A DNA stretch of 38,394 nt from a bacterium (GTDB lineage: Bacteria > Patescibacteriota > Minisyncoccia > Phycocordibacterales > CAIZLB01): positions 1 through 38,394 of the forward strand of contig JAIXXV010000002.1 in assembly GCA_027490575.1 (NCBI GenBank), in the 5' to 3' direction. This document shows positions 8,843-38,394 of the stretch, one piece after another. The stretch's first letter is position 1, and the number at the start of each line of letters is the position of its first letter. The notes beneath the pieces are model-generated. The model searched no databases and was not told the origin of the DNA. It was given only the letters and a program-made list of their open reading frames with translations. The position numbers were made by a program, and so were the translations under genes.

Positions 8843-8915
8843 TTGTTTATTAGTTTAATTCGCCACTTTATAAAAATTTTATTTTTACATAATGTGAAAG
8901 TTGTATTGTCTGTAC

Positions 8916-9926
8916 ATGGCAGACATACCCGTAAAACAAAACAAGATACATATATATAAGAGAGATGATGTACCAGATATATCAATAGCTGATATCACTC
9001 CCGTCTTTAAGTCAAAAGGCGCAACTGGTTTTATTGATTATGTTGTTGAATACGCACTTTCTATAGATGCAAGCGATATACACATAGATCCTTTTCCCGA
9101 CTATTCTATGGTCAATATGCGGGTCAATGGATTTCTGAGGTCTGTATTCAAATTGCAAAAGAATCTAATACTAGAATGTATTGGACGTATAAAAATACTG
9201 GCAAAGTTGCGCACTGACATAAACAACAAGGCGCAGGATGGCCGATATGAGTTTATGTCACAAGAAAAAGAACGCATTGATATGCGTGTTTCTACCATGC
9301 CGACTTTCTACGGAGAGAATGCAGTGCTTAGGATACTTAGGCCATCCAAGCAAAGAGATTTAAGTCTAAATACACTAGGCATGGATGACACACAGGTCGG
9401 CACGCTCAATCGCTTTGTAGATAAACAACAAGGCCTGATACTGGTGGCAGGGTCCACTGGCTCTGGTAAAACTACAACTATATATGCATTTTGTAATCTC
9501 CTCATAAAAGCAAAGCGCAATGTGGTAACCGTGGAGGACCCAGTCGAATACCTAATAGACGGTGCAAGGCAAATACAGATAGCGGAAAGTTACTTTGGAT
9601 TTTCTGATGCTCTTAGGTCGGTACTAAGGCAAGATCCGGATGTCATTGTGGTAGGCGAGATTAGGGATTCAGAAACAGCACACCTAGCTTTTCGAGCCGC
9701 TCTTACTGGTCACCTTGTGATAGCAACCATACACGCTGAGGATTCATATGGTGTCAGAGATAGACTGGTGGACTTAGGAGTATCAGAATCCATGCTCACT
9801 CTTTTAAAACTTATCATATCACAAAAGCTCAAGCCTGTGACAGATGAAAAGCAAAAAGTCATATCCAGAAAAGCAGATTTTCACTTTTTGGATTTAACAA
9901 ATACTGATAATGATAAGCCACAGTAG
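8916..9926 (+). CDS. Short PilB/PilT/GspE-family secretion ATPase
   Basis: This 336-residue ATPase powers a type IV pilus or type II secretion-like machine. It has the N2-like region SDIHIDPF (53-60), Walker A GSTGSGKTT (179-187), the Asp box TVEDPVEY (205-212), Walker B VIVVGEIRD (243-251) and the His box TGHLVIATIH (264-273). PilB proteins are usually about 560 residues. This one lacks the N-terminal MshEN domain and stops shortly after SQKLKP, where PilB carries the CxxC zinc element, so it is nearer PilT in size. I chose ATG 8916; a TTG at 8901 would add five residues. It opens the pilus cassette, with pilC 82 nt downstream. Confidence 0.9.
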   Translation: MADIPVKQNKIHIYKRDDVPDISIADITPVFKSKGATGFIDYVVEYALSIDASDIHIDPFPDYSMVNMRVNGFLRSVFKLQKNLILECIGRIKILAKLRTDINNKAQDGRYEFMSQEKERIDMRVSTMPTFYGENAVLRILRPSKQRDLSLNTLGMDDTQVGTLNRFVDKQQGLILVAGSTGSGKTTTIYAFCNLLIKAKRNVVTVEDPVEYLIDGARQIQIAESYFGFSDALRSVLRQDPDVIVVGEIRDSETAHLAFRAALTGHLVIATIHAEDSYGVRDRLVDLGVSESMLTLLKLIISQKLKPVTDEKQKVISRKADFHFLDLTNTDNDKPQ

Positions 9927-10008: not shown

Positions 10009-11058
10009 ATGAAAAAACAAAACTCCTTAATCATTCAAAAATATTTCAAATATGTATCGCTGTATCTTTCATCTGGACACAGTATTGACGACTCATTTAG
10101 AATTGCTTTAAAAAAGATTAAGGATAGGAGAGTCTGTAGACATTTTACTGATTTTGTAGAATCGCTTAGAGAAGGAAAAAGCATAGATGATGTACTCGAA
10201 GCACTCTTGAAGCAAGGTATCATAGACAGCACTGTATATGCACTTATACTTGTCGGTCACAAAAGTGCAAATCTACCACTGTCACTTATGGAGATATCAA
10301 AGTATTTGGAAAAGAACAATAGCTTCAAAAAATCACTAGTCGGTTCAATGATTTATCCTGCGGTTGTCATAGTATCCGCAAGTCTATCTGTACTATATAT
10401 AGTATATATCGTTCTGCCTAAAATACTCCCAATATTCAAATCCTTAAAGGCACCGCTCCCCAAGACGACAGAATATTTACTTCATTTTACGAGCCTTCTG
10501 TCTAAATATGGTCTTATATATTTCGTAGCTGTTATCTTTGTTATGGCAATAGTATTGGTTATATATATGTATAATGAAAATCTCAGAAAAACTTTGCACT
10601 TTTATGTCTACTTGATACCAGTACTTGGCAAGGTCATATTTTTATGCGATATGAGAAATCTGTCACTTTGTTTAGGTACATTATTGAAATCCAATATGAG
10701 CATCGTTGATAGTTTTGAGGTGGGGATATCATTTACAAAAAATCTTCATATCAAAGGTGCTCTGTTAGATATAAAGGCCGGTATTTCATCAGGGCAAAAC
10801 TTATCCAGCGCAATTACCGAAAAGCATTTACTTGCAAATGAGTTTAAGGACTTTGCAACTTTAGGTGAAGCTACAGGAACCATGGCAGAGTCATTTTTAG
10901 ACCTAAGCAATATATCTATGTACGAATATGAAGACGAAGTAAATAAAATATCAAAACTAGTTGAGCCTATCGCGCTTCTAATATCAGCAGGTCTTGTACT
11001 TACTGTTGCACTGTCTGTTATAAGCCCAATGTACATGTTAGTTAATTATGTAAATTAA
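10009..11058 (+). CDS. pilC: PilC/GspF-type inner-membrane platform protein
   Basis: This 349-residue protein is the polytopic membrane platform of a type IV pilus/type II secretion-like machine and binds the ATPase. It contains two repeated T2SSF domains. Membrane helices are at about 117-140 (following SMIYPAVV), 168-188 and 320-343. The signature after the first helix, KSLKAPLPKTT (144-154), matches the family's lpxxT loop. The second repeat contains the FATLGEATGTMAESF-type segment. It follows the ATPase gene on the same strand and precedes two prepilin genes, the first by 18 nt, which suggests one transcription unit. Confidence 0.93.
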   Translation: MKKQNSLIIQKYFKYVSLYLSSGHSIDDSFRIALKKIKDRRVCRHFTDFVESLREGKSIDDVLEALLKQGIIDSTVYALILVGHKSANLPLSLMEISKYLEKNNSFKKSLVGSMIYPAVVIVSASLSVLYIVYIVLPKILPIFKSLKAPLPKTTEYLLHFTSLLSKYGLIYFVAVIFVMAIVLVIYMYNENLRKTLHFYVYLIPVLGKVIFLCDMRNLSLCLGTLLKSNMSIVDSFEVGISFTKNLHIKGALLDIKAGISSGQNLSSAITEKHLLANEFKDFATLGEATGTMAESFLDLSNISMYEYEDEVNKISKLVEPIALLISAGLVLTVALSVISPMYMLVNYVN

Positions 11059-11076: not shown

Positions 11077-12471
11077 ATGGCAAAAAATAATTTTGAGAAA
11101 AAGCGCGGAATAAAATTCAACATAATATCCAGCACCAAACCATATGGATTCAGTATGATCGAAATACTACTTGTGGTATCTCTGTCTACTTTTCTCTTTA
11201 TGCCAATCATTACACTGCTATATAGTTTTTATAATGGCTTAAATCAAAACCATGATGATAGTGCCCATGAGGACATTTACTTATCTAAAAACACCAAGCT
11301 TACAAAATACAAAGAGGGGTTGATCTTGGTAAACCATCCTCTTGGTCAATATTCAAATGATAATAGTGATTGCCCTGTGATGGAAAAAATCGGTAAAGAT
11401 ATTGCGCTTAAAAATGAGCTTAAGTTTTCCTTAAAATCAATACCCTCAATAGACATAGGATTTCCGACGTCGACTCTGGCAACTGGTCTTAGTTTGATAG
11501 GTTCAAATATTATAACGTCTGTTGACTCTTCAAGTACTACACTTGAAGACATTATAGTTTATGGTTACGAAAATATGTCTCTACTTAGACGAAGTCTTGT
11601 TGATACTGGTCCTGGATATTTAGGTATAGCCTCAGACGGACACAGTCTTTATCTTGCAAACACTAGCGTCAATTCCCAGGCTCATTTGTTGGACGGTTTG
11701 TTTACCCAGGACTTGTTACGGGGCATTACTGGTGCTATCCAAAGAATTGATCCAGAGCTATCTAGTCCAACTGAAATTCTTAAAAGTTTTAAATTTCCAG
11801 GTGCAAACTCTAGTACTTCGCCCATAACAAAAAAGATTATAAAACATGGTGATTTACTTGTTGTTGGAACACAGAAAACTTCCTTAGATGAAATACATAT
11901 ATTTGATGCAAACACTGGAGTTTTGCTCTCATCTATAAATACTGAATATGGCATAAATGCCATGGCTATTTACGACAATCATTTGATAATACTTGGACCA
12001 CAAGATCCGGAGATTCAGATATATGACGTAAATAATCCAGCTCAACCTACCATTGTTAGTGAATATGATTTGAAAGGCGGGTCGGGGAATGGAAGGAGTA
12101 TCGGTATATTTGGAGAAAGGATGTATGTCGGCAGATCAAAAGGCGGTGAAGAGCTCATGGTTTTTGAGACAAAGAGTATTGGAGATGATTACAGGCTGGT
12201 GCAAGTGGCTAGTGAAAAAGTCGGACATAGTATTGACGTTCTCGTACCGCATAGAGATTTTGCTATGTTGTTCACATCAAATCAACATGGTGAAGTATAC
12301 ATAGCCAAGCTAGAAAAAGGTGTCACGGGTAAAAGTATTTCATTGGAAAATCTACCACTGAATCTCGAAGGTAGAGTTTCAGATTATGTATGTGTTGGTA
12401 ATGATATTGTCTTATCAATCCTTAATACCGAATACCCATTTGCAATATTAACTTATGAAAATGACAACTAG
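11077..12471 (+). CDS. Prepilin-like protein carrying a C-terminal beta-propeller
   Basis: This 464-residue protein joins a type IV prepilin start to a propeller. The leader is long and basic (1-24), ending YG before FSMIEILLVVSL. Cleavage would fall after Gly24 and leave Phe+1 and Glu+5 (residue 29), the classical prepilin pattern. The hydrophobic helix runs to about residue 50. Residues 170-464 show about six weakly similar blades; one, IQIYDVNNPAQPTIVSEYDL, fits the LVIVD repeat type, and others contain LVVG, MYVGR and VYIAK strands. Pilins are normally 120-180 residues, so the propeller is an extra exported head. It lies between pilC and a minor prepilin gene it overlaps by 17 nt. A tip adhesin role is inference. 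Confidence 0.78.
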   Translation: MAKNNFEKKRGIKFNIISSTKPYGFSMIEILLVVSLSTFLFMPIITLLYSFYNGLNQNHDDSAHEDIYLSKNTKLTKYKEGLILVNHPLGQYSNDNSDCPVMEKIGKDIALKNELKFSLKSIPSIDIGFPTSTLATGLSLIGSNIITSVDSSSTTLEDIIVYGYENMSLLRRSLVDTGPGYLGIASDGHSLYLANTSVNSQAHLLDGLFTQDLLRGITGAIQRIDPELSSPTEILKSFKFPGANSSTSPITKKIIKHGDLLVVGTQKTSLDEIHIFDANTGVLLSSINTEYGINAMAIYDNHLIILGPQDPEIQIYDVNNPAQPTIVSEYDLKGGSGNGRSIGIFGERMYVGRSKGGEELMVFETKSIGDDYRLVQVASEKVGHSIDVLVPHRDFAMLFTSNQHGEVYIAKLEKGVTGKSISLENLPLNLEGRVSDYVCVGNDIVLSILNTEYPFAILTYENDN

Positions 12472-12838
12472 ACATAATCGCAATTCTAAAAAAGGTATGA
12501 CAATCTTTGAGATTGTCATTTATGTAGCGCTTTTTTCAATATGCTTTAGCACTATTATGATGACAGTATTTTCTATGCAAAAAACAATACTTCGGATTTC
12601 AGAGAACAGAAAAGTGTCCATAGCAAACATGTACATATATGAGTATGTCAGGAACGCACTTCATGGAGACAAGGTCGTCACTGCAGAAGATATAAACACA
12701 TTTGCTAGAAAGATTTCTCCGTACATAGAGATCGGCACTTTTGAGATTGATAGTTTTGAAAAAATCCCACAAGACTATGTGGAACTTAAATACAAAGTTG
12801 ATAATAAATCTCAAGAAATAAAAATTGATATGATATAA
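12455..12838 (+). CDS. Minor prepilin-like protein
   Basis: This 127-residue protein has a type IV prepilin signal: a basic leader (residues 1-14, ending KKG) followed by MTIFEIVIYVALFS. Cleavage after Gly14 gives Met+1 and Glu+5 (residue 19). The hydrophobic helix spans about 15-43 and is followed by a small mixed alpha/beta head with no cysteines. The start overlaps the propeller-bearing prepilin by 17 nt, so the two are probably translated together and may assemble as adjacent minor pilins. It resembles PulJ/GspJ-like or GspI-like minor pseudopilins in layout, but I cannot assign a subtype. Confidence 0.82.
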   Translation: MKMTTRHNRNSKKGMTIFEIVIYVALFSICFSTIMMTVFSMQKTILRISENRKVSIANMYIYEYVRNALHGDKVVTAEDINTFARKISPYIEIGTFEIDSFEKIPQDYVELKYKVDNKSQEIKIDMI

Positions 12839-12847: not shown

Positions 12848-13564
12848 ATGGTATATGGATATTCTGGAGGTGGTATAAGTTCTCAAAAAAGTGCACTTGG
12901 AAGTGATGCGTCTTCTTCTGAGAGACTTAGAATAGAAGCAGCAAGAAAAGAAAAAGATAGAGTTGAAAAACAAAGGGCGAAAGCTGCACTTGATGAAGCT
13001 AGAAAAAAGTACGAGCACAACAAGCTGGACATTTCGCATCGTGAGACTGAGATAAGACGTCTAAACACAGAGATAGCCAAAGCACAAAGAGACATACAAG
13101 ATGCAGAGATGGAGTTAAAAAACTCAGATAAAAAAGAGCATGATTCCAAGGTCAAAGTTGTTGATTATGAAAATCAGGTAAAAGAATTTGAAAGAAAGAT
13201 TCATGACACAAAGATTGAGTCAGACAAGAAGTCATATGAGCTAAGGCAGCATGAGATAGAGTTGCAAAGACTACAGCAAAAGATTATAGAGATCAAAAGA
13301 GATATTTCTGAGTATGGTTCTCGGATACTTTCAATAGGATTACAAATAAATCAACTTGAGTCGACTTCACATAAGTCAGCAGTGGACGCTGAAAGAGTCA
13401 AAAGTGAAAAGATGTACAAACAAAAAGATATAGACAATAAAACTCGAAGTCTGGATATCATAAAAGGTAAGCATGATAGGGAGGTTTCTGAAGTTAGTCG
13501 TTTGAAGACAGAAGTCTTGAGGCTTGAAATGGAGATAAAAAGTTTGGAACAGAAAGCCAAATAA
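12848..13564 (+). CDS. Coiled-coil protein at the end of the pilus cassette
   Basis: I do not recognise a family for this 238-residue protein. After a short Gly/Ser-rich head (MVYGYSGGGISS, then to about residue 23), it is almost entirely charged heptad-rich helix from about 25 to 238, broken near residues 155-165 (SEYGSRILSIG). It has no signal peptide, transmembrane segment or cysteine, so it is probably cytoplasmic and elongated. It directly follows the prepilin genes but has its own extended -10 promoter and a perfect terminator, so it can be expressed separately. A structural or scaffolding role near the pilus base is possible but only guilt by association. Confidence 0.75.
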   Translation: MVYGYSGGGISSQKSALGSDASSSERLRIEAARKEKDRVEKQRAKAALDEARKKYEHNKLDISHRETEIRRLNTEIAKAQRDIQDAEMELKNSDKKEHDSKVKVVDYENQVKEFERKIHDTKIESDKKSYELRQHEIELQRLQQKIIEIKRDISEYGSRILSIGLQINQLESTSHKSAVDAERVKSEKMYKQKDIDNKTRSLDIIKGKHDREVSEVSRLKTEVLRLEMEIKSLEQKAK

Positions 13565-26298: not shown

Positions 26299-29200
26299 AT
26301 GAAACAAAAAAGTCTGCATTTCATAAACACATTTCTTCTTTCTCTAGTCATTATGACTTCAGTTTTTTTTGTTTATCCATTTAAAACATTTGCGGAAGAT
26401 GAAGTTGCGCCAACAACAACTGAATCTGTTTCTGCACCAGTTGAATCAATTGCACCAACAGAAACAGTTGTTGAAGTTACAACTCAAGAAACAACAAACA
26501 CTTCTAATAACACAACTTATACGTCAACTGAAACTACTACAACAAATTCTGAAAATAATAATGTTCAAGTTACAAACACAGGTTCAGGTAGTGAATCAAA
26601 TTCATCGACCGGCACAACGACTGATGACCAGTCAATAATTACAAACGAAAACTCTACTTCAACGTCTCCTACATCGGGCACATCAACTTCTACGCCGGAT
26701 ACATCAACTAGTACTACAGACAACTCAACGACAACTATTGCGATTGAAACAAATCCAACATCGACATCAAGTAGCACTGAATCAACTTCAACTTCAACTA
26801 CTGCAGACACGACATCAACATCTACGGACTCAGCATCAAATTTAAGCAATGATGAAACATCAACTGCTTCATCAACTCAATCTATAACTACTACTCAAAC
26901 AACAACTACTACTGATACAAATACTTCAACTTCAACAGAAATATTTTCAACTTCTACAAATGCTCTATCTCCAAATATTTCAGAAGCACTTGATGATGGT
27001 AAAAAAATTGTAACTATATCTTCACCTGAAGGATATGATCCTGCTACGATGATAAACATTCCTGTAAAGATTTCTATTCCAGAAATGTTCAAGGTTGGTC
27101 AAGAAGATCAGATACAAATAAAATGGCAGAACAATGAAAATCTAAATATGCAATTTGTTGCAACTGATGAAGATGGTGATGGTTACCTTGATCACGTTAG
27201 TTGGATAGTTCCACACCTTTCAACTCAAATATTCGAAATTATATTTGTATCTAGCGCACTAAGACTTGATGCTGATAAAAATATTATTGATGACGTTTAC
27301 AGTTTTATAAAAGATAGAGATCAAAATTATGTAAGTGTATCTAATGGACAATTTGTAAGAGTGACATTCGAACATCTCTTGGATAACACAAGAGATATTA
27401 CACTTTTTGCTCGACCTACAAATCCTGGTGAATCAGTAACTGTAGAAGCTTATACTCTAGATGGAACACTTGTTGGAACTTTCGCTACTATAAATGCAGA
27501 TGGAAGATATAGTCTAGTTTTAAATAATCTTGCAAACCCTTCAGCTGTATTTGACTTGAAGATAATGGGTAACCTAGACATAGACTATATTATTGACCCA
27601 AACGCTTTCTGGGTAGGTGGAACAGGAAACTGGTCAGATCCAACTAAGTGGTCATCAACATCAAACGGTGCTGGAGGAAGCTTCGGCGGTATACCTGATG
27701 CAACTACAGCAGTATTTATAGATGCGAGTTCAGGAAACGCATCATCAATCATTACTATAAATACAAATGCTACTGTAGGATCTATCACAGTAAACGGATA
27801 CACAGGAACAATAGTTCAATCAGCAAATCTAACAATCACAAATGCATCAGGACAATCAGGTAACTATGTGCAAAACTCAGCTGCAACATTCACAGCAACT
27901 AATCCTGGTACAAATACATTCTCAGCTACTGGAAACTTTGCTATCAATGCAGGAACATTCAGAAGATACACAGGTTTAGGAATCAGCTCTGACCCATTTG
28001 TAGTTTTCGATGTATACGGACTACAAGGTATGTCTACGAATCTTGGTAGTTCATATAAATTGAATAATGATATCTCTGCATCAGTTACAAGTGGGTGGAA
28101 TTCAGCTTCTGGTTTTAGACCAATAGGAAACTTAGCAACTCCTTTCACGGGAATATTTGATGGAAATAATTTTGCAATCAACGATTTGTTTATTGCTACA
28201 ACTTCAGCCAACTACGTTGGTCTTTTTGGTTACTCTACAAACCTTATAAAAGATGTATATCTAAACTCAGCGTCTATATCTGCTACAAGTACAAATGGTG
28301 CAGTAGGAAGTAATGGTGCAAATGGTACAAACGGAGCTGCAACTTCAAACGGTGCAAACGGAGGAGCGGGTACAGCAGGAGCTACACTATTTTTGGGAGG
28401 TATAGTTGGATACAACACTGGAATATTATCTAATGTAAGTGTAAGTGGAAGTGTTAATGGTACTGGTGGATCTGGTGGTGTAGGAGGAACTGGTGGAAAC
28501 GGTGGAAATATCACAACTGGTGCAAACACCGGTGGCTTAGGAGGATCTGCTGTAAGTAACGCTGCGGCGGTCGGAGGTTTAGCATATGTCGGAGGTATAG
28601 TTGGATATTCGCAACAAGGAAGTGTGACATCAGCTTCAAGTTCTGCGACAGTTATAGGTATTGGAGGTGCTGGAGGAGCAAGTGGTAATGCCGGTAATGG
28701 AGGAAATGGATCAACCGCAGGTGTTGGAACTGGTATAGGTGGAGCTGGAGGTTCAGCCGCAGTTGCTGGAGCTGGTAACATAGCGTACGTAGGTGGTGTA
28801 GTAGGGTGGTTACATACAGGTACTTTATCTTCTTCAAATGCGACAGGTGAAGTCACTGCAATAGGCGGAGCGGGAGGTAATGCTGGTACATCAGGTGCAG
28901 GAGGAAATGCAGGTACAGGCGCAGGTGGTGCAAACATAGGAGGTGTAGGTGGTGCAGGAGCATCAGGGGGTGCGGCGGCGGCTGCCTTTGCGGGAGGTTT
29001 GGCAGGGAACAACTCAGGTACAATTCAAGAAGGTAGTTTTGCAACAGGTAGAATAATAGCGATTGGAGGTACACCAGGTAATGGATCTGCTGGAAGCACT
29101 GGAGGTGCTTCAGCTGCTGGATCTACTGTAGCAGCCGCATCCGGTCTTACTGCAGTCGGAGGAGCTGGCGGTGCAGGTGCGGCGGCATATGCAGGCGGAC

Positions 29201-32200
29201 TAGTAGCACTAAATAACATATCCGGAGTAATAACTGGTACATCTACATTGATTTATGCAGCTGGAGAAGTTACAGCTACAGGTTCTTCAGGTAGAAACGG
29301 AACTGCTGGTGGTGCTGGAGGAAGTGCAGCTTTGACTACTTCTGGTACGGGAGGTGTGGGTGGATCGGGTGGTGCTGGAGGCGCAGGTGGTGCAGGGTAT
29401 GCTGGAGGATTGGTTGCATTAAATCAAGGTGTCATATCTGCAGTATCTTCATCTGTCGGAACTACCACTGTTATGGGTGGAGCAGGAGGAAACGGAGGTA
29501 CTGGTGGAGTGGGTGGTGCAAGAGGTTCTGCTGGTACTTCAGGTGTGGGAGGTGCATCTGGTAACGGAGGTTCAGCCGCAGTGCTTCCGTCATATGCCGG
29601 AGGTGTGGTTGGAAGCAATACAGGTATAGTAGAATGGGCATCTTCTACTAATGTTGTTATTGGTACAGCTGGAGCTGGAGGTGCTGGAGGAACTGGAGCT
29701 GCAGGTCAAACAGGTCTAGCTGGTATTGCTGGAGGAAATGGCGGTGCCGCGGGTGTACTATTTATAGGTGGTGTTGCCGGGAACAGTACATTTTCAATAA
29801 ATAACACTAATCACACATTGGGTGCTGTTATAGGAACAGCTGGAGCCGGCGGTGCCGCTGGTGTAGGAGGTGCAGGAGGTGCATGGGCTGGTGGTACTCA
29901 AGGTGCTTCTGGTGCCGCTGTAGTAGGAGGTATTGTGTATGCCGGTGGAGTTGTTGGACACAATAACGGTACTACAGTTTTTAATTCTTACTCAACTGGA
30001 CCTGTTACAGGAACAGCTGGAGTGGGAGGAGCCGGTGTACAAGGTGGTAATGGATACACATTTACAACAGGTGTAGCTGGAGTAGCAGGAGGTGTTGGTC
30101 TAACTGGGGGTATAGCATACGTAGGAGGTGTTGTTGGTTTTTTAAATAACGGTGAAATTCAAAATTCATATTCGACAGGAGTCATAACTTCATTCGGTGG
30201 AGCTGGGGGTGCAGGAGGAAACGGAGGTAATGGTGGGGCAGGTACTTCAAACACTGGCGGAGCTGGAGGTGCAGGAGGAAACGGTGGTACAGGAGGTATT
30301 GCATATTCAGGCGGTGTCACGGGTATTATTTTGATAGGTACTGTATCTGGTAGTTATAATACTGGGGATATCATTGCAACGGGTGGAAACGGAGGTGTCG
30401 CAGGAAATGGAGGTAATGGTGGTATTGGCGGAACAAACTTCGCTGGAGGTGTTGGAGCTGGTGCTGGAGTGGGAGGTGCGGCAGGAAACTCAGCTGCTGG
30501 AGGTGTTGCAGGGCAAAGTGCAGGAATTATCCAATCAAACTCATATTCAGCCGGCAATGTCACAGCACTTAGTGGCACAGCGCAGGCTGGAGGTGTCGGT
30601 GGAAATGGAGGTGCTTCTACAGGAACCTTTGTAGGCGCAGCAGCTGTGGGTGGATCGGGTGGTGCTGGAGGAGCAGGTGGCTCTCCTTTTGCCGGAGGAA
30701 TAGTAGGTAACAATACAAACTCTATAGTGGATTCTTATGCTAGTGGAAATATAGTTGCTACTGCATCTGCTGGAGGCAATGGCGGATCTGCAGGATTAGC
30801 TGGCAGTAATGCATCAGGTGGAGCTTCAAGTACAGGAGCGGCAGGTGCAAACGGTGGTGCGGGTGGCGCAGGTGCAATAGCACATGCTGGAGGTATAGCT
30901 GGTTTGAATGCAGCTTCTATAACAAATGTTTATGTCGCGTCAGGTTTTGCTACTTCTACAGGAGGAAACGGCGGTGCCGGTGCTGATGGTGGAAACGCTG
31001 GGGTTGGAGGTACGGGCGCTTTGGGTGCTGTTGGTGGAAACGGTGGTGCTGGCGCCAACGGTGCTATCGGATACGCAGGAGGACTTGTTGGTTTTAACTC
31101 TGCTGGAAATGTTAACAGTTCGTATTCAACAATGTCTGTGGTAGCAATTGGTGGTTCATCAGGAAATTCAGGAAATGGAGGAAATGGAGGCGCGGGAGCG
31201 GTCGGTGGAGCAGGAGGAGGAACAGCTGGTACTGGCGTAGGTGTAGGTGCTCCTGGCTATGCTGGCGGACTTATTGGTATGAACAGCGGATCAGTCAACG
31301 GTTCGTATTCGACGGGTGATGCAACCTCAATAGGTGGTGTCGGTGGTGCTAACGGTCGTGGTGGAAATGGAGGTAGTAGAGCAACTTCTGCCGGTGCTTC
31401 AGGAGGTGCCAGTGGTACAGTTGTTACAAACATTGGAGGTATAAGTTATGCTGGCGGGCTTATTGGATTTAATACAACAAACGGAAGTATAGCGGCATCG
31501 TATGCTACTGGTAACGCAAATGCTACAGGTGGTGCTGGTGCCAATGGGCCTAGTGGTGCTAATGGAGGAAGTACAGGCGGTTCCTTTACAGGAGGTTCAG
31601 GTGTTGCTGGTCAATCTGGAACAACAGGAGGTGTGGCTTCTGCTGGAGGTTTGGTTGGTTTGAATACTGGTACTGTATCTTCTAATTCTTATGCTGCAGG
31701 GAGCGCTTTTGCAATAGGAGGAACTGGAGGTGCCGGAGGAAATGGTGGTAATGCTGGTGCGTCAGGGCCAAACTTTGCAGGTGTTACTGGAGTTGCTGGA
31801 GGAAACGGTGGTAACGGTGGAGCTTCATATGCTGGAGGAATATTTGGTATTAATACATCAGTGGGTGTAACAATCACTATTGCTAATGCCACAGGAACAT
31901 TTTCTTCTATAGGAGGTATGGCTGGATCAGCTGGAAATGGTGGTAATGGAGGTAATGGTAGTACTACACCTGCTACTATTGGAGGAGTTGGAGGAGCAGG
32001 AGGAACTGGGGGGACCGGAGGACTGTCTGCAACCGGGGGTATAGCAGGTTTTAGTAGCGAGGGAACAATCAGAGACATCATATATACAATCACATCTATT
32101 ACTGCAACCGGAGGTACAGCGGGTGCTGGCGGTATTGGTGGAAATGCAGGTGCATCTGGAAATGTTTCTGGCGGATCTGCTGCAACTGGTGGTTCTGGAG

Positions 32201-35200
32201 GAACTGGTGGTGTAGGAGGCGCAATCAACCTAGGAGGAATTGTTGGTGACAATGCGGGTTTTATTGAGAATGTTATTGTAATTGGTAGTTTAAATGCTAC
32301 AGGGACAGTTGGTGCAGCGGGTAATATTGGAGGCTTGGGTGGAAACGGTTCTCTAGGTGTCAGTGGTCATACTGGAGGTACGGGTGGAGCAGGAGGAAAC
32401 GGAGGTAACGGTGGTTTGATATACATAGGTGGCATAGCTGGTACAAGCAATGGAAATATATCAAATTCAACTACAACAGGAGGTTCTATTATGGTTACAG
32501 GTGCAAGTGGTGCAAATGGAGGAGCAGGGTCTGCTGGAGGTGTGGGTGGTTCCGGAAGTGGAAGAAATGGGGTTGGTGGTGCTGGTGGAACAGGTGGTTC
32601 GATAGGTCTTGCTTTTGCTGGTGGAATAATCGGCCATTCGTCACTTGCTTCGACTTTGCTAGACAAAGTTTCTTCGACACAAAACATAACTGTCATTTCT
32701 GGAAATGCTGGAAATGGTGGTAACAGTGTAGATGGGGTAAATGGTGCTGCTGGTAGTGCAGGAGGTATAGGTGGTAACGGTGGAGCAGCTGCTTCAGCGG
32801 TTTCGGCTGGAGGAATTGTTGGATATATCGCAGGTTCAGGTTTTACAATCAATACTTCTTATGCAACAGGTAATGTTGTTGTTGTGGGGGGTAATGGTGG
32901 TAATGGTCAAGTTGGAGGTGTAGGTGCTAATGCTATTAGTGCTGTTGCTGGAGGTGCAGGAGGAAACGGAGGAGCAGGTGGAGCAGGTGGATTTGCATAT
33001 GGTGGAGGACTTGTAGGTTTTATAAATACAATTGCTTTGATTAGTGATTCTTATGCAACAGGTGAAGTTTCTGTGACTTCAGGAAATGGAGGAAATGCTG
33101 GAAACGGCGGAGCCGGTGGAACAGGAGGAGCTTCTCAAGTTGGAGGGGTAGGAGGTGTTGGTGGCGCTGGTGGATTAGGAGGTTCATTGTTCAGCGGAGG
33201 ATTGGTTGGACAAATAGCTTCAGGAAATATTTCAAATTCGTATTCAACAGGGGCTGTAGAAGGAATTTCTGGTAATGGTGGAAATAGTGGAAATGGTGGT
33301 AATGGAGGAAATGGTGGTTCAGGTTCAGTAGGTACTATAGGTACCGCGGGTACTGCTGGTGCTGCTGGAGGTATAAATTATACCGGCGGACTTGTTGGGT
33401 TTAATACATCACATATACTGCTTTCATATCATGTTTCTGGTACAGTAACTGCAATAAGTGGAAATGGTGGTAATGGTGGAGCGGGAGGAAACGGTGGAGC
33501 ATCTGGAAACGTAACTGGAGGTTCTGCAGTGGCGGGTGGAGCAGGTGCTGCTGGAGGTATAGGTGGCGCATTGTCTGCAGGAGGGTTAGTAGGATTGAGT
33601 GGTGCTACAGCCTTGTCATCATCTATAACTGATTCATATGCAACGACTGATGTTGTTGCAACATCAGGAAATGGAGGTAGTGGTGGTGTGGGAGGAAATG
33701 GAGGAAATGGATCAGCTGGAACAAACCACACAGGAGGAGTAGGTGGAGCGGGAGGTGCAGGTGGTTCAGGCGCAAACGTCTTTGCGGGATCGCTACAAAT
33801 AGGAGGATTAGTTGGTCAAAATACTTTAGGTACTATATCTGGTAGTTATTCAAGAACTGGCACGATTACTGCTATTGGCGGTAATGGAGGTATAGCGGCT
33901 CTCGGTGGTATAGGTGGCGTCGGAACTGGTACAGCTGTTCATGGAGTAGGAGGTGCTGGGGCTACTGGAGGTTCAGGAAGTACTATTTACGCGGGTGGAC
34001 TTGTAGGTTTTACGACAGGTGTCGTACAAAATACATCATACTCACAAACAACACTTATTGTAACAAGTGGATCTGGTGCTAATGGATCAAATGGAATAAG
34101 TGCTACAGCAAACAGCGGTGCAGCTGGAAGTGTTCCTGGAGGAGGAGGATCAGCGGGTCTAATATTTGTAGGCGGTCTTGCTGGATACACTACATCAAAT
34201 GTCATATCTTCTTATGCTAGTTACGATAGTGTTTCTGGAAAAGGAAATATTACTTTCACAAGTGGAACACCTGGAAATGGTGGTAATGCAGGTAACGGAG
34301 GATCTGGACTAGCTGCTGGTGGAGCAGGAGGTGCAGGCGCTGTAGCAACCCTAGGGTCAGGTGGTGCATCGTCACTAGTCTTTGTTGGAGGATTATCTGG
34401 TTTTGCTTCTGGTGTAATAACGTCATCTTATGCAATAAATATAAATATTTCTGGAAGTATAGGAGCTGGAGGTAATGGTGGCTCTGGAGGAAATGGAGGA
34501 AATGGTATTGGATCTTTCAATGGTGGTGTCGGTTCAGTAGGAGGAATTGGAGGCGCTGGCGGTACTGTATTATCTGGAGGTCTAGTTGGTGAGTATTTTC
34601 CAACCGCAGCTACTGCTGGTTCAATACAAGGCGGATCTTATTCAAATATAAACATAAATGTAGTTGCAGGTAATGGTGGTAACGGTGGAGCGGGAGGAAA
34701 CGGTGGAGCATCTGGCTCAGGTCAATCAACTGGAACTTCAGCTGTGGCTGGTGTGGGTGGAGCAGGTGGCGCGGGCGCAACTGCCTTTGCAGGAGGATTG
34801 GTTGGTCGTATAAACGGTACAACTCAGATAATTCAAATCGCAGACTCTTATGCAACCGGTAGTACAACTGCCACAGCAGGAAACGGTGGTAACGGCGGAG
34901 CTGGAGGAAACGGTGGTAATGGATCTACTGGAAGTGGTACTCATGCTGGAGCTACAGGAGGACTTGGTGGAGTAGCGGGAGTAGGTGGTGAATCTAACGC
35001 TGGTGGACTGCTAGGTCGTGGTGATATAACAACAGGTGCTTTAGACACGATATCTGTATATTCAACAGGTGCTGTAAATGCTATAGGTGGTAATGCTGGC
35101 ACTGCAGGTACTGGAGGAAATGGAGGTGCTTCTGCTACAGGTGCTGCGGGTAGTGCTGGTGGTGGAGGTGTAATTGCGGCAGTTGGAGGTGCTGCGTATG

Positions 35201-38200
35201 CTGGTGGTCTTATAGGAATACACAGAATAACCACAACTCCTGGACAAGGTGATATCTTGAATTCATATGCTACAGGTAATGTAACTGCTATTGGTGGTAT
35301 TGGTTCAAATGGAAATATTGGTGGAAACGCTGGTACTGGTGGAACTATAGGTGGATCAGGTGGTGTAGGAGGTCCGTCAGGTATAGGTGGAGAGGCTTAT
35401 GCAGGTGGTCTAGTAGGTCTTGCAAGTGTTACAACTGGTTTTATAAATTATACAAATAACTTTACCACCATAGTAAGCGTTAATGCTATTGGAGGTGCAT
35501 CTGGAAATGGTGGAATTGCTGGGGCGTCTACAGCTGGTGGAACTGGAGCGGGTGGTGCTAGTGCCGCATCTGGTTCAAGTGCCTCAGGAGGAGCTGCGTA
35601 TGCCGGAGGTTTGATTGCTCAGGTTGTTGCCACTGCAAGTAACAACTTGCAGATATCAAATAACTATTCAATCGGTAATGTTAGCGCAACAGGAGGAGCG
35701 TCAGGTAATGGTGCTAACGGTGTAGTCGGCGGAGCAGGAGGAACAAATAGTATTGGTGGAGCAGGAGGAGCTGGTGGAGCTGACGGTACTGGAGGTGCTG
35801 CCTATGCTGGTGGTCTTATAGGAACAAATGGAACGGCAGGAGGTGTTGGTGGTGGTATAATCCAAGATAATTCATTTGCATCAGGTACTACAACGGCTAC
35901 AGGTGGTAGTGTTGGGATAGCAGGAACTGGTGGCACTGGCGGTGCAAGTAATATTGGTACAGCTACAACTGGAGCTACGGGCGGAAACGGCGGTGCTGCT
36001 GGTGCCGGAGGTGCTGCGTATGCTGGAGGTTTGATAGCAAACAATGGAGCAACAGGAGTTGTTTTGAATTCTTTTGCAACAGGTACAGTAATAGCTGTAG
36101 GAGTAAATGGTGGTAATGGAGGTACAGGTGGTAATGGAGGTGATGCATCTCTAAGTACAGGTGCTGGCGGACTTGCTGGTATCGGAGGTACTGCTGGAGC
36201 AGGTGGAGCAAGTTTTGCAGGTGGACTTGTTGCAAACAATGTCAGCGTGTTAAACACAATTACAACAAGTTACTTTGTTGGATCTCTGGTGTCAGGTATT
36301 AGCGGAAACGGAGGTGTGGGAGGAACAGGAGGAAACGGAGGTCTTGGTGGATCAGCTGCAACTGGTGGTGATGGACGTCAAGGAGGTACAGCCGGAGTCG
36401 GTGGAGTTTTATACGTAGGTGGATTTGTAGGCTTCAATAACGGAACAATACAGACTTTTTCATATGCAAGAACTAATGTAACTGGAGTTGCTGGTTCTGG
36501 TGGTGCGGGAGGTGCAGGAGGAAATGGTGTCAATGGATCAAATGGAACTTCAGGTAATGGAGGAAATGGCGGTGCAGGTGGTGTAGGTATCATAGGAGGT
36601 GCAGGAGGTGCTGGTTATGTAGGTGGTTTTGTCGGGTGGCACAACACCTCAAGAACAATTAGTGATGCTTTTGCAATAGGCAGTGTCACAGTTCTTGGAG
36701 GAAACGGTGGTAATGGAGGAGTTGGTGGAAATGGTGGTAATGGAGGAAATGGTGCATTGTCTGGTACGGGCGGAACTGGAGGTGTTGCTGGTGCAAGTGG
36801 TGCTGGAGCAAATACAGATGTTGTATACGGAGGTGGGTTTGCAGGATACAGTGCAGGTATAATAAACACAGTTTACTCAATTGGATCAGTTTCTGTTACA
36901 GGTGGTGCTGGTGGTAATACAGGTAATGGAGGAAATGCTGGAAACGGTGGAAATGGTGGACCAACGGGTGCAGGTGGTGCCGGTGGCGCTCAAGGTGCAA
37001 CTGCCGCTGCTGGTAATGGAGGTATTCCAGCCGCAGGTGGACTAATAGGTCGTATTTTTACAGGAGGGTCTCTATTAAACTCATGGACATCTGGAGCGGT
37101 CTCAGTTTCTGGAGGTAATGGTGGAAACGGAGGTGTTAGAGGTAATTCAGGAACAGGAGGTGCTGGCGGTACTGGAGCAGGAGGAGTTGGTGGTGCTAGT
37201 ATCTCAGGTGGTGCTGGAGGAGGAGGTGCACCCGCATTTGCTGGAGGACTTGTTGGTGAACTAATTAATGCATCAATCATTAACAGCTATGCTTCAACTA
37301 GCGTATATCTACTAGGAAGTAATGGAGGAAACGGTGGTAATGGAGGAAATGGTGGCGCAGGAGGAACAGGAGGATCTTCAGGTAACGGTGGTGCCGGTTC
37401 AAGTGGACTTGTTGGTGGTACAGGTATCGTCGCAGGAAATGTATTTGGAGGAAGTTTTGTTGGAGACGTTCTTGGTTCAACAATTACAAATGCATATGCA
37501 CTAGGCAGTGTCACTGTTATTGCAGGTAATCCTGGTGTTGGTGGAAATGGAGGAAATGGTGGAAATGGAGGTGTGGCTGGCGGAGCTAGTGCGGGTTCAA
37601 ATGGAAACGGAGGATCAGGTGGAGCTGGAGGTGCAGGTGCATCAGCTTTTGCTGGCGGTCTATTGGGAAGAAATGGTACAACTGTTGTTACAAATACATA
37701 TGCAACAGGTATTCCTGTTGCAACTAGAAGTCTGGGTGCTTCTGGAGGTACAGGCGGGGTAGCTGGAGTTGGAGCAGGTGCTGCTGGTTCGCCAGGTGCT
37801 AATGGGGCCACTGGAGCATCTTCTGCTCTAGAACAAGCTGGAGGTATTGTAGGAAGTACAGGCGGAACATTCTCTTCAGGTTATTTTGATGCTACAACAT
37901 CAGGTGCAACTTTCGCTGCTGGGAACTCAACAAACCCTAGTGGAACAGCCAGTAGGACTACAACACAAATGGAGCAACAAGCCACATTTACTGGTTGGGA
38001 TTTCACTACGCTTCCTGTTTGGAAAATAGTAGAAAATTCAACGTATCCGTATTTTGGATATCAAACATCACCTGAAGCGCCTACAAATGTAGTTGCAGTA
38101 GGTGGAAACGCTCAGGCAACTATAACTTTCACTCCACCTGGAGATGTTGGAGGTTCACCAGTTCTGTACTACACCGTCACATCAAATGCCGGTCACACTG

Positions 38201-38394
38201 CAGTCGGTGGTTCATCACCAATCACAGTACTAGGTCTAACTAACGGTACTACTTACACATTTACAGTAACTGCAACTAATGCATTCGGTACAAGTACAAT
38301 ATCTGCTACAAGTAATTCTGTAACTCCTGCAACTGTTCCAGATGCTCCTACTAACGTAGTTGCAGTTCGTGGAAACACTGAAGCTACAATCACA
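26299..38394 (+). CDS. Giant GLUG/Gly-Gly-X repeat surface protein, 3' end outside window
   Basis: One frame stays open for 4032 codons and runs off the window. A signal peptide (about 1-34, ending KTFA) is followed by a Ser/Thr-rich stalk (about 37-225), then a region with the DxDGDGYLDH-WIVPHLS motif (about 230-315) seen in CPR and DPANN surface proteins. A beta region follows (315-433), then a WVGGTGNW beta-helix-like domain (437-570). From residue 640 to about 3855 there are about 50 GLUG-type units with glycine-rich inserts. A closing block (GWDF, VWKI, YPYFGY, about 3895-3920) ends the GLUG array, and fibronectin type III domains start at 3922 and 4015, the second cut by the window end. 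No cysteine is seen. It is a likely secreted adhesin or cell-contact fibre; attachment is unknown. Confidence 0.9.
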   Translation, partial: MKQKSLHFINTFLLSLVIMTSVFFVYPFKTFAEDEVAPTTTESVSAPVESIAPTETVVEVTTQETTNTSNNTTYTSTETTTTNSENNNVQVTNTGSGSESNSSTGTTTDDQSIITNENSTSTSPTSGTSTSTPDTSTSTTDNSTTTIAIETNPTSTSSSTESTSTSTTADTTSTSTDSASNLSNDETSTASSTQSITTTQTTTTTDTNTSTSTEIFSTSTNALSPNISEALDDGKKIVTISSPEGYDPATMINIPVKISIPEMFKVGQEDQIQIKWQNNENLNMQFVATDEDGDGYLDHVSWIVPHLSTQIFEIIFVSSALRLDADKNIIDDVYSFIKDRDQNYVSVSNGQFVRVTFEHLLDNTRDITLFARPTNPGESVTVEAYTLDGTLVGTFATINADGRYSLVLNNLANPSAVFDLKIMGNLDIDYIIDPNAFWVGGTGNWSDPTKWSSTSNGAGGSFGGIPDATTAVFIDASSGNASSIITINTNATVGSITVNGYTGTIVQSANLTITNASGQSGNYVQNSAATFTATNPGTNTFSATGNFAINAGTFRRYTGLGISSDPFVVFDVYGLQGMSTNLGSSYKLNNDISASVTSGWNSASGFRPIGNLATPFTGIFDGNNFAINDLFIATTSANYVGLFGYSTNLIKDVYLNSASISATSTNGAVGSNGANGTNGAATSNGANGGAGTAGATLFLGGIVGYNTGILSNVSVSGSVNGTGGSGGVGGTGGNGGNITTGANTGGLGGSAVSNAAAVGGLAYVGGIVGYSQQGSVTSASSSATVIGIGGAGGASGNAGNGGNGSTAGVGTGIGGAGGSAAVAGAGNIAYVGGVVGWLHTGTLSSSNATGEVTAIGGAGGNAGTSGAGGNAGTGAGGANIGGVGGAGASGGAAAAAFAGGLAGNNSGTIQEGSFATGRIIAIGGTPGNGSAGSTGGASAAGSTVAAASGLTAVGGAGGAGAAAYAGGLVALNNISGVITGTSTLIYAAGEVTATGSSGRNGTAGGAGGSAALTTSGTGGVGGSGGAGGAGGAGYAGGLVALNQGVISAVSSSVGTTTVMGGAGGNGGTGGVGGARGSAGTSGVGGASGNGGSAAVLPSYAGGVVGSNTGIVEWASSTNVVIGTAGAGGAGGTGAAGQTGLAGIAGGNGGAAGVLFIGGVAGNSTFSINNTNHTLGAVIGTAGAGGAAGVGGAGGAWAGGTQGASGAAVVGGIVYAGGVVGHNNGTTVFNSYSTGPVTGTAGVGGAGVQGGNGYTFTTGVAGVAGGVGLTGGIAYVGGVVGFLNNGEIQNSYSTGVITSFGGAGGAGGNGGNGGAGTSNTGGAGGAGGNGGTGGIAYSGGVTGIILIGTVSGSYNTGDIIATGGNGGVAGNGGNGGIGGTNFAGGVGAGAGVGGAAGNSAAGGVAGQSAGIIQSNSYSAGNVTALSGTAQAGGVGGNGGASTGTFVGAAAVGGSGGAGGAGGSPFAGGIVGNNTNSIVDSYASGNIVATASAGGNGGSAGLAGSNASGGASSTGAAGANGGAGGAGAIAHAGGIAGLNAASITNVYVASGFATSTGGNGGAGADGGNAGVGGTGALGAVGGNGGAGANGAIGYAGGLVGFNSAGNVNSSYSTMSVVAIGGSSGNSGNGGNGGAGAVGGAGGGTAGTGVGVGAPGYAGGLIGMNSGSVNGSYSTGDATSIGGVGGANGRGGNGGSRATSAGASGGASGTVVTNIGGISYAGGLIGFNTTNGSIAASYATGNANATGGAGANGPSGANGGSTGGSFTGGSGVAGQSGTTGGVASAGGLVGLNTGTVSSNSYAAGSAFAIGGTGGAGGNGGNAGASGPNFAGVTGVAGGNGGNGGASYAGGIFGINTSVGVTITIANATGTFSSIGGMAGSAGNGGNGGNGSTTPATIGGVGGAGGTGGTGGLSATGGIAGFSSEGTIRDIIYTITSITATGGTAGAGGIGGNAGASGNVSGGSAATGGSGGTGGVGGAINLGGIVGDNAGFIENVIVIGSLNATGTVGAAGNIGGLGGNGSLGVSGHTGGTGGAGGNGGNGGLIYIGGIAGTSNGNISNSTTTGGSIMVTGASGANGGAGSAGGVGGSGSGRNGVGGAGGTGGSIGLAFAGGIIGHSSLASTLLDKVSSTQNITVISGNAGNGGNSVDGVNGAAGSAGGIGGNGGAAASAVSAGGIVGYIAGSGFTINTSYATGNVVVVGGNGGNGQVGGVGANAISAVAGGAGGNGGAGGAGGFAYGGGLVGFINTIALISDSYATGEVSVTSGNGGNAGNGGAGGTGGASQVGGVGGVGGAGGLGGSLFSGGLVGQIASGNISNSYSTGAVEGISGNGGNSGNGGNGGNGGSGSVGTIGTAGTAGAAGGINYTGGLVGFNTSHILLSYHVSGTVTAISGNGGNGGAGGNGGASGNVTGGSAVAGGAGAAGGIGGALSAGGLVGLSGATALSSSITDSYATTDVVATSGNGGSGGVGGNGGNGSAGTNHTGGVGGAGGAGGSGANVFAGSLQIGGLVGQNTLGTISGSYSRTGTITAIGGNGGIAALGGIGGVGTGTAVHGVGGAGATGGSGSTIYAGGLVGFTTGVVQNTSYSQTTLIVTSGSGANGSNGISATANSGAAGSVPGGGGSAGLIFVGGLAGYTTSNVISSYASYDSVSGKGNITFTSGTPGNGGNAGNGGSGLAAGGAGGAGAVATLGSGGASSLVFVGGLSGFASGVITSSYAININISGSIGAGGNGGSGGNGGNGIGSFNGGVGSVGGIGGAGGTVLSGGLVGEYFPTAATAGSIQGGSYSNININVVAGNGGNGGAGGNGGASGSGQSTGTSAVAGVGGAGGAGATAFAGGLVGRINGTTQIIQIADSYATGSTTATAGNGGNGGAGGNGGNGSTGSGTHAGATGGLGGVAGVGGESNAGGLLGRGDITTGALDTISVYSTGAVNAIGGNAGTAGTGGNGGASATGAAGSAGGGGVIAAVGGAAYAGGLIGIHRITTTPGQGDILNSYATGNVTAIGGIGSNGNIGGNAGTGGTIGGSGGVGGPSGIGGEAYAGGLVGLASVTTGFINYTNNFTTIVSVNAIGGASGNGGIAGASTAGGTGAGGASAASGSSASGGAAYAGGLIAQVVATASNNLQISNNYSIGNVSATGGASGNGANGVVGGAGGTNSIGGAGGAGGADGTGGAAYAGGLIGTNGTAGGVGGGIIQDNSFASGTTTATGGSVGIAGTGGTGGASNIGTATTGATGGNGGAAGAGGAAYAGGLIANNGATGVVLNSFATGTVIAVGVNGGNGGTGGNGGDASLSTGAGGLAGIGGTAGAGGASFAGGLVANNVSVLNTITTSYFVGSLVSGISGNGGVGGTGGNGGLGGSAATGGDGRQGGTAGVGGVLYVGGFVGFNNGTIQTFSYARTNVTGVAGSGGAGGAGGNGVNGSNGTSGNGGNGGAGGVGIIGGAGGAGYVGGFVGWHNTSRTISDAFAIGSVTVLGGNGGNGGVGGNGGNGGNGALSGTGGTGGVAGASGAGANTDVVYGGGFAGYSAGIINTVYSIGSVSVTGGAGGNTGNGGNAGNGGNGGPTGAGGAGGAQGATAAAGNGGIPAAGGLIGRIFTGGSLLNSWTSGAVSVSGGNGGNGGVRGNSGTGGAGGTGAGGVGGASISGGAGGGGAPAFAGGLVGELINASIINSYASTSVYLLGSNGGNGGNGGNGGAGGTGGSSGNGGAGSSGLVGGTGIVAGNVFGGSFVGDVLGSTITNAYALGSVTVIAGNPGVGGNGGNGGNGGVAGGASAGSNGNGGSGGAGGAGASAFAGGLLGRNGTTVVTNTYATGIPVATRSLGASGGTGGVAGVGAGAAGSPGANGATGASSALEQAGGIVGSTGGTFSSGYFDATTSGATFAAGNSTNPSGTASRTTTQMEQQATFTGWDFTTLPVWKIVENSTYPYFGYQTSPEAPTNVVAVGGNAQATITFTPPGDVGGSPVLYYTVTSNAGHTAVGGSSPITVLGLTNGTTYTFTVTATNAFGTSTISATSNSVTPATVPDAPTNVVAVRGNTEATIT
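26404..26970 (+). repeat. Ser/Thr-rich low-complexity stalk
   Basis: This part of the giant gene encodes about 190 residues that are mostly Thr and Ser with some Asn, Glu, Asp and Pro, in TST/STST-like runs. Such stalks are extended, and are glycosylated in many surface proteins. It sits between the signal peptide and the first folded region. Confidence 0.8.
28216..37866 (+). repeat. Array of about 50 GLUG-type units with PGRS-like glycine inserts
   Basis: I count 49 landmarks of the form (A/V/S)-GG-(L/I/V)-x-G/A from 28396 to 37840, after a first YVGLFGYS at 28213. Mean spacing is 197 nt (66 residues). Each unit has a GLUG-like core (AGGLVGxNxGxIxNSYATGxVxA) of about 28 residues and an insert of about 30-45 residues built from GGX triplets (GGNGGAGG and the like). 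The inserts sit at the same place in every unit. Codons alternate between GGA and GGT, so units are similar in protein but not identical in DNA. Well-preserved examples lie at 31078, 31264, 33004 and 33385. Confidence 0.9.

Follow-up and report, generated by a model that had tools for sequence, protein, structure and literature searches.

The locus considered here raises the question of why a gene that starts as a type IV prepilin should continue into a beta-propeller, and what such a product might do for the bacterium that makes it. The window, by which we mean the whole stretch of 38,394 nucleotides that was analysed, carries this gene together with a second prepilin gene, with which it shares 17 nt (12455-12471). 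A sequence-only reading had described both ORFs and their overlap, and both were confirmed at the positions given in Table 1; it had further suggested that the propeller protein could be a simplified tip adhesin of an episymbiont, built into a pilin where PilY1 would be a protein of its own. We consider, with a probability of about 0.7, that the propeller gene encodes the I-type minor pilin of the tip complex of a dedicated type IV pilus, with a built-in adhesive head instead of PilY1.

Table 1. Features of the pilus operon in the window and of its propeller protein
Feature	Position	Strand	Remarks
Short extension ATPase (PilB/GspE/ComGA type), third pilus system	8901..9926	+	T2SSE E 4e-82, residues 44-319; GspE/PilB/ComGA models
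Platform protein PilC/GspF/ComGB	10009..11058	+	T2SSF E 1.7e-32; adjoins the propeller pilin in most relatives
Propeller prepilin ORF	11077-12471	+	464 aa; seven-bladed LVIVD-like propeller; predicted I (ComGE/PilV/GspI) slot
Leader, residues 1-24, ending in Gly24	11077..11148	+	Site pattern in 70 relatives; predicted cleavage by prepilin peptidase
N-terminal pilin helix, residues 27-55	11155..11241	+	AlphaFold2 model
Low-confidence linker, residues 56-97	11242..11367	+	pLDDT < 50 over 52-97
Seven-bladed beta-propeller, residues 98-464	11368..12468	+	AlphaFold2 model, structural matches, L073 model
Cys99, proposed disulfide partner of Cys439	11371..11373	+	Pairing rule, 70 members
Cys439 (blade 7), putative disulfide with Cys99	12391..12393	+	48/70 members
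Second prepilin ORF, minor, J (ComGF/PilW/GspJ) type	12455-12838	+	127 aa; N_methyl E 0.014; J profile from relatives E 4.5e-16
Coiled-coil protein directly 3' of the J pilin gene	12848..13564	+	Counterparts in L002-L008, L010, L014

In the protein of the window, Gly24 is followed by FSMIEILLVVSLSTFLFMPIITLLYSFYNGL, which places Phe25 at +1 and Glu29 at +5 and leads into a hydrophobic helix; the features of a class III signal peptide (a basic leader ending in Gly or Ala, Glu at +5 and a hydrophobic helix) are present. Scored by itself this protein stays below threshold (N_methyl E 0.22, TIGR02532 E 0.13), but we accept the site because it is near-invariant in the relatives. Gly occupies position -1 in 58 of the 70 that could be aligned, the remainder being mostly leaderless, and the +5 residue is acidic in all 70 (Glu in 64, Asp in 6). 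The classical start that the sequence-only reading had recognized in Gly24 and Glu at +5 is thus a property of the family, and the prepilin peptidase (A24) encoded in the genome would be expected to cleave it. The exchange of Glu for Asp at +5 is found in one group of the order (L092, L099, L102, L103, L105 and L106).

The fold of the protein was modelled with AlphaFold2 from its own sequence together with nine natural relatives. Beyond the N-terminal helix and the low-confidence stretch, the model has seven four-stranded blades over residues 117 to 460 or thereabouts, with pLDDT mostly 80-94 over the 28 strands, a loop at 210-230 excepted, and the ring is closed by the first strand (117-122), which completes blade 7. 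The best structural match is YncE (Z 29.7, rmsd 2.5 over 291 residues), and others are seven-bladed WD40 proteins, including the spliceosomal PRL1 type (Z about 29). A distant relative, L073, was modelled with the same seven-bladed core, and six blades, as first read from the sequence, are ruled out by the two models; the propeller itself and its likeness to LVIVD stand, and its extent is about 98-464 where residues 50-464 had been proposed for modelling. LVIVD (PF08309) was not detectable by Pfam search in the window protein itself and is clear in five of 19 relatives (E 7e-14). The same Pfam search returned no PF05567 for the window protein, which has a prepilin start instead of a type I signal peptide; RCC1 repeats matched neither this protein nor anything in its genome, and a PilY1 chain is absent among the structural matches listed, which excludes nothing. 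A single product of 464 residues therefore joins a prepilin start, a membrane helix, a linker and a confidently modelled propeller, as had been claimed, and it agrees with the definition of a modular pilin as a pilin N-terminus with a domain that is not specific to pili (Raynaud 2021). The fusion is confirmed as a real feature of the locus, far beyond chance.

The cysteines of the family follow a simple rule. In 47 of 70 members, Cys439 in blade 7 goes with a single Cys in the segment from the helix to blade 1, and 17 members without Cys439 have two Cys in that same segment; three have none and three are exceptions (Fisher 3e-17 for the 70 members, a statistic that ignores shared ancestry). 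This pairing predicts a disulfide that closes the propeller, and the conserved pair suggests that in most members one disulfide of the exported protein links the entry strand with blade 7.

The fusion is preserved well beyond this genome. A protein search found the propeller pilin in 19 of 61 genomes of relatives. A profile found it in 72 of 397 genomes of the order (E 1e-28 or better) and, at 1e-20, in 40 of 384 genomes of the class and 32 of 381 of the phylum, samples that include some genomes of the same order; these counts omit the weaker hits to very long frames, which belong to other LVIVD proteins. A scan of genome contigs with the window protein alone as query returned nothing; an 11-row alignment as query gave matches, and the public titles name Candidatus Paceibacterota, with lakes and further environments as the sources of the metagenomes. 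The conservation that the sequence-only reading had wished to see checked is therefore present across the order and recurs in the class and the phylum, and its distribution indicates an old and widespread family of Paceibacterota.

The propeller and J genes lie within a pilus operon, a context that the sequence-only reading did not mention: genes for an ATPase and a platform protein precede them on the same strand. No MshEN domain was detected in this ATPase by Pfam search. I and J are the only pilins of the operon in the window, with no H, K or A gene beside them. The coiled-coil protein that follows, which with its counterparts begins MVYGYSGGG... or MTYGYQQGG..., is kept within one family of genomes, and no counterpart was seen in the other families inspected.

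In the relatives this context is more complete. PilC or another pilin lies immediately upstream of the propeller pilin in 51 of 57 loci, and in about 50 of 57 the next gene downstream is pilin-like, one ambiguous neighbour at L064 having been excluded from the count; the fuller operons read pilB, pilC, an H-type pilin, the propeller pilin, J-type, K-type and a major pilin (A) that carries an INPxRQF motif. H-I-J-K is the order of type IVa and Com pili, in which HIJK forms the tip complex and ComGE is the I subunit (PMC10191384). The K-type pilins of these operons lack Glu5, as expected of a cap. By sequence the I-type assignment is weak (E 1e-4) and derives largely from gene order; some relatives match PilV (1.5e-4) and ComGE (9e-5), none such being listed for the window protein, and the full H-I-J-K order is that of the relatives.

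A pilus-like apparatus need not be an adhesive pilus. The operon of the window has no retraction ATPase, and type II secretion makes use of HIJK complexes too (PMC10191384), so that the structure might be a secretion-type pseudopilus whose I subunit recognizes or carries a secreted cargo, or the propeller might be a pilin-anchored sensor; both seem unlikely to us, given that each complete operon has a major pilin of its own and that the sampled loci share no conserved cargo gene. It is quite unlikely as well that the propeller pilin serves as an accessory subunit along the filament, outside the tip complex: a flexible linker could fit a bulky head into the shaft (PMC8179133), and TM7x without PilX2 still forms thin filaments (PMC12206443), but the gene takes the place of I where the order H-I-J-K is conserved, and its tree distances follow those of PilC (Mantel r 0.78 over 43 loci, 0 of 2000 permutations), which implies that the two have been inherited together. 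We reject as highly improbable a Com-type DNA-uptake pilus with a DNA-binding propeller, to which the short ATPase, a comG-like gene order, ComGE and ComGF matches in relatives and the top match to YncE (crystallised from E. coli with DNA) might point, because ComEC is missing from the genome, in a search whose control was positive in 10 of 14 genomes, and the head is acidic (median pI 4.7, below 6 in 67 of 70 members and above 8 in none), the comparable T4P-2 of TM7x also having made no contribution to competence (PMC12206443).

The pilus to which the propeller gene belongs is one of three in its genome, if we count pairs of ATPase and platform genes (on contig 32, on contig 42 and in the window); individual pilins were assigned partly by eye. 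The set on contig 32 has a PilT-like ATPase, a peptidase, two major-type and four minor-type pilins, contig 42 holds a second set, and both look complete. With profiles from relatives, the major pilin (A) of the third system was located on contig 6 (E 2.7e-60, 45-55% identity to the others); a K-type pilin (E 7e-7) lies just before it, and no H pilin specific to this system was identified. This major pilin has a strong match (E 1e-45 or better) in 31 genomes of the order, and the propeller pilin is present in every one of them. This co-occurrence and the presence of A and K pilins in the genome argue for a distinct, co-inherited system and against a stripped-down remnant. The word "simplified" was therefore misleading: relatives keep the full pilB-pilC-H-I-J-K-A set, and this genome has two other pilus systems that look complete. 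Of the original interpretation, the built-in propeller, its coupling to a second prepilin and its conservation survive, and the six blades and the simplification do not. A search for a separate PilY1 gave no match in this genome or in 143 genomes of the phylum, but its controls were equally silent, so that it carries no weight on whether PilY1 is missing.

Three other frames of the same genome deserve mention. A 452-aa prepilin on contig 10 (L067:5617-6975) has a C-terminal half made of repeated Cys motifs, CSDPxYTxQxSC, and is a second, different modular pilin; near it lies a repeat-rich protein (L067:5-2278, SNFFGxxAGxxATNAxx) whose end resembles a phage tail-spike chaperone domain (LKENITTIENALDKISQLRGVSYEW). 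The window ends in a giant open frame (26299-38394), which runs off the contig and has a minimum length of 4032 aa. An N-terminal hydrophobic segment is followed by repeats, first Thr/Ser-rich and then Gly-rich (GGAGGNGG...YAGGLVG), and the frame closes with fibronectin-like sequence; it accounts for the strong G-over-C skew of that region and looks like a surface adhesin.

A tip pilin with an adhesive head might work as follows. The dedicated pilus would comprise the ATPase, the platform protein, the H-I-J-K minor pilins and its own major pilin; in the I pilin, the seven-bladed LVIVD-like propeller would follow the N-terminal helix and linker as a grafted domain. The helix would enter the membrane, the prepilin peptidase of the genome would remove the leader after Gly24 (leaderless relatives excepted), and the propeller subunit would associate with J and K in the complex from which the filament begins to assemble. 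For that reason the complex would end up at the tip, and extension would carry the propeller outward, where it would bind a partner cell or a surface and do the same job as a separate PilY1. The disulfide between the entry segment and blade 7 would probably keep the ring closed under pull. Although propellers bind partners of many kinds, the bacterium is probably host-dependent, and the most likely use of a propeller tip would be to grab another cell: in TM7x the deletion of PilX2 lowered host binding (4.6% of host cells, against 10.6%) and carried a competitive fitness cost (PMC12206443), and Paceibacteria of the family UBA5633 attach to Methanospirillum and have conserved pilin clusters (PMC9763046), which makes attachment to cells plausible here.

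PilX2 of Nanosynbacter lyticus TM7x is the nearest parallel, being, like the present protein, a minor pilin whose C-terminal part is a seven-bladed propeller and which is made by an ultrasmall bacterium; it belongs to the second pilus system of TM7x and has been proposed as a PilY1-like adhesin (PMC12206443). It comes from a different class of Patescibacteria (Saccharibacteria), bears the name X where the gene described here holds the I slot, and its propeller is described as RCC1-type as opposed to LVIVD-like, a comparison of descriptions and not of sequences. The modular PilB and PilC of Streptococcus sanguinis also place a binding domain after a pilin start and linker, but their domains are of the vWA and lectin types and they occupy other positions of the tip complex (PMC8179133). 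PilY1/PilC1 shares the propeller, for which a location on the core minor pilins at the pilus tip has been proposed, and differs in being a separate secreted protein and not a pilin. ComGE, PilI (PilV) and GspI share the gene slot and N-terminal segment, with weak profile matches in relatives, and are small pilins without a propeller. Propeller-bearing and modular pilins were thus already known (PMC12206443, PMC8179133), as was the need for PilX2 in normal host binding; new within the literature searched are the LVIVD-type family of the I slot, the conserved operon and dedicated major pilin that accompany it across the Paceibacterota, the rule for the cysteines, and the members that lack a leader.

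The leaderless forms are eight propeller pilins of three families (L006, L007, L008, L010, L013, L014, L053 and L118), from six species of one sister genus and from the genomes G323 and G364 of other families. Their coding sequences begin Met-Leu-Ile-Leu-Glu or Met-Ser-Thr-Leu-Glu, with Met at the mature +1 position and Glu at +5. Upstream of them there is no in-frame ATG, GTG or TTG, and no Gly at -1; a hidden non-ATG start that supplies a leader is unlikely, since in three of the six sister-genus members (L006, L007, L008) a stop lies in frame 2 to 10 codons upstream and none of the members has the Gly. The J and K pilins beside them, where present, keep normal leaders. Judging from these reading frames, we would give even odds that they are pilins made without a leader, which could enter the tip complex without prepilin peptidase, and we propose that processing might be unnecessary for a tip pilin, of which one is made for each pilus. 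Grossman et al. noted that PilX1 and PilX2 of TM7x likewise have no predicted signal for prepilin peptidase (PilD) (PMC12206443). If the proposal is true, a tip pilin would not need its leader processed, and PilX1 and PilX2 may lack the PilD signal for the same reason.

For the Paceibacterota, the propeller family offers a concrete and widespread candidate for the gripping end of pili outside the Saccharibacteria, and the propeller pilin together with its own major pilin may serve as a marker of a third kind of pilus in these bacteria. The putative cysteine clamp and the leaderless members would provide simple predictions on how the tip of such a pilus is constructed.
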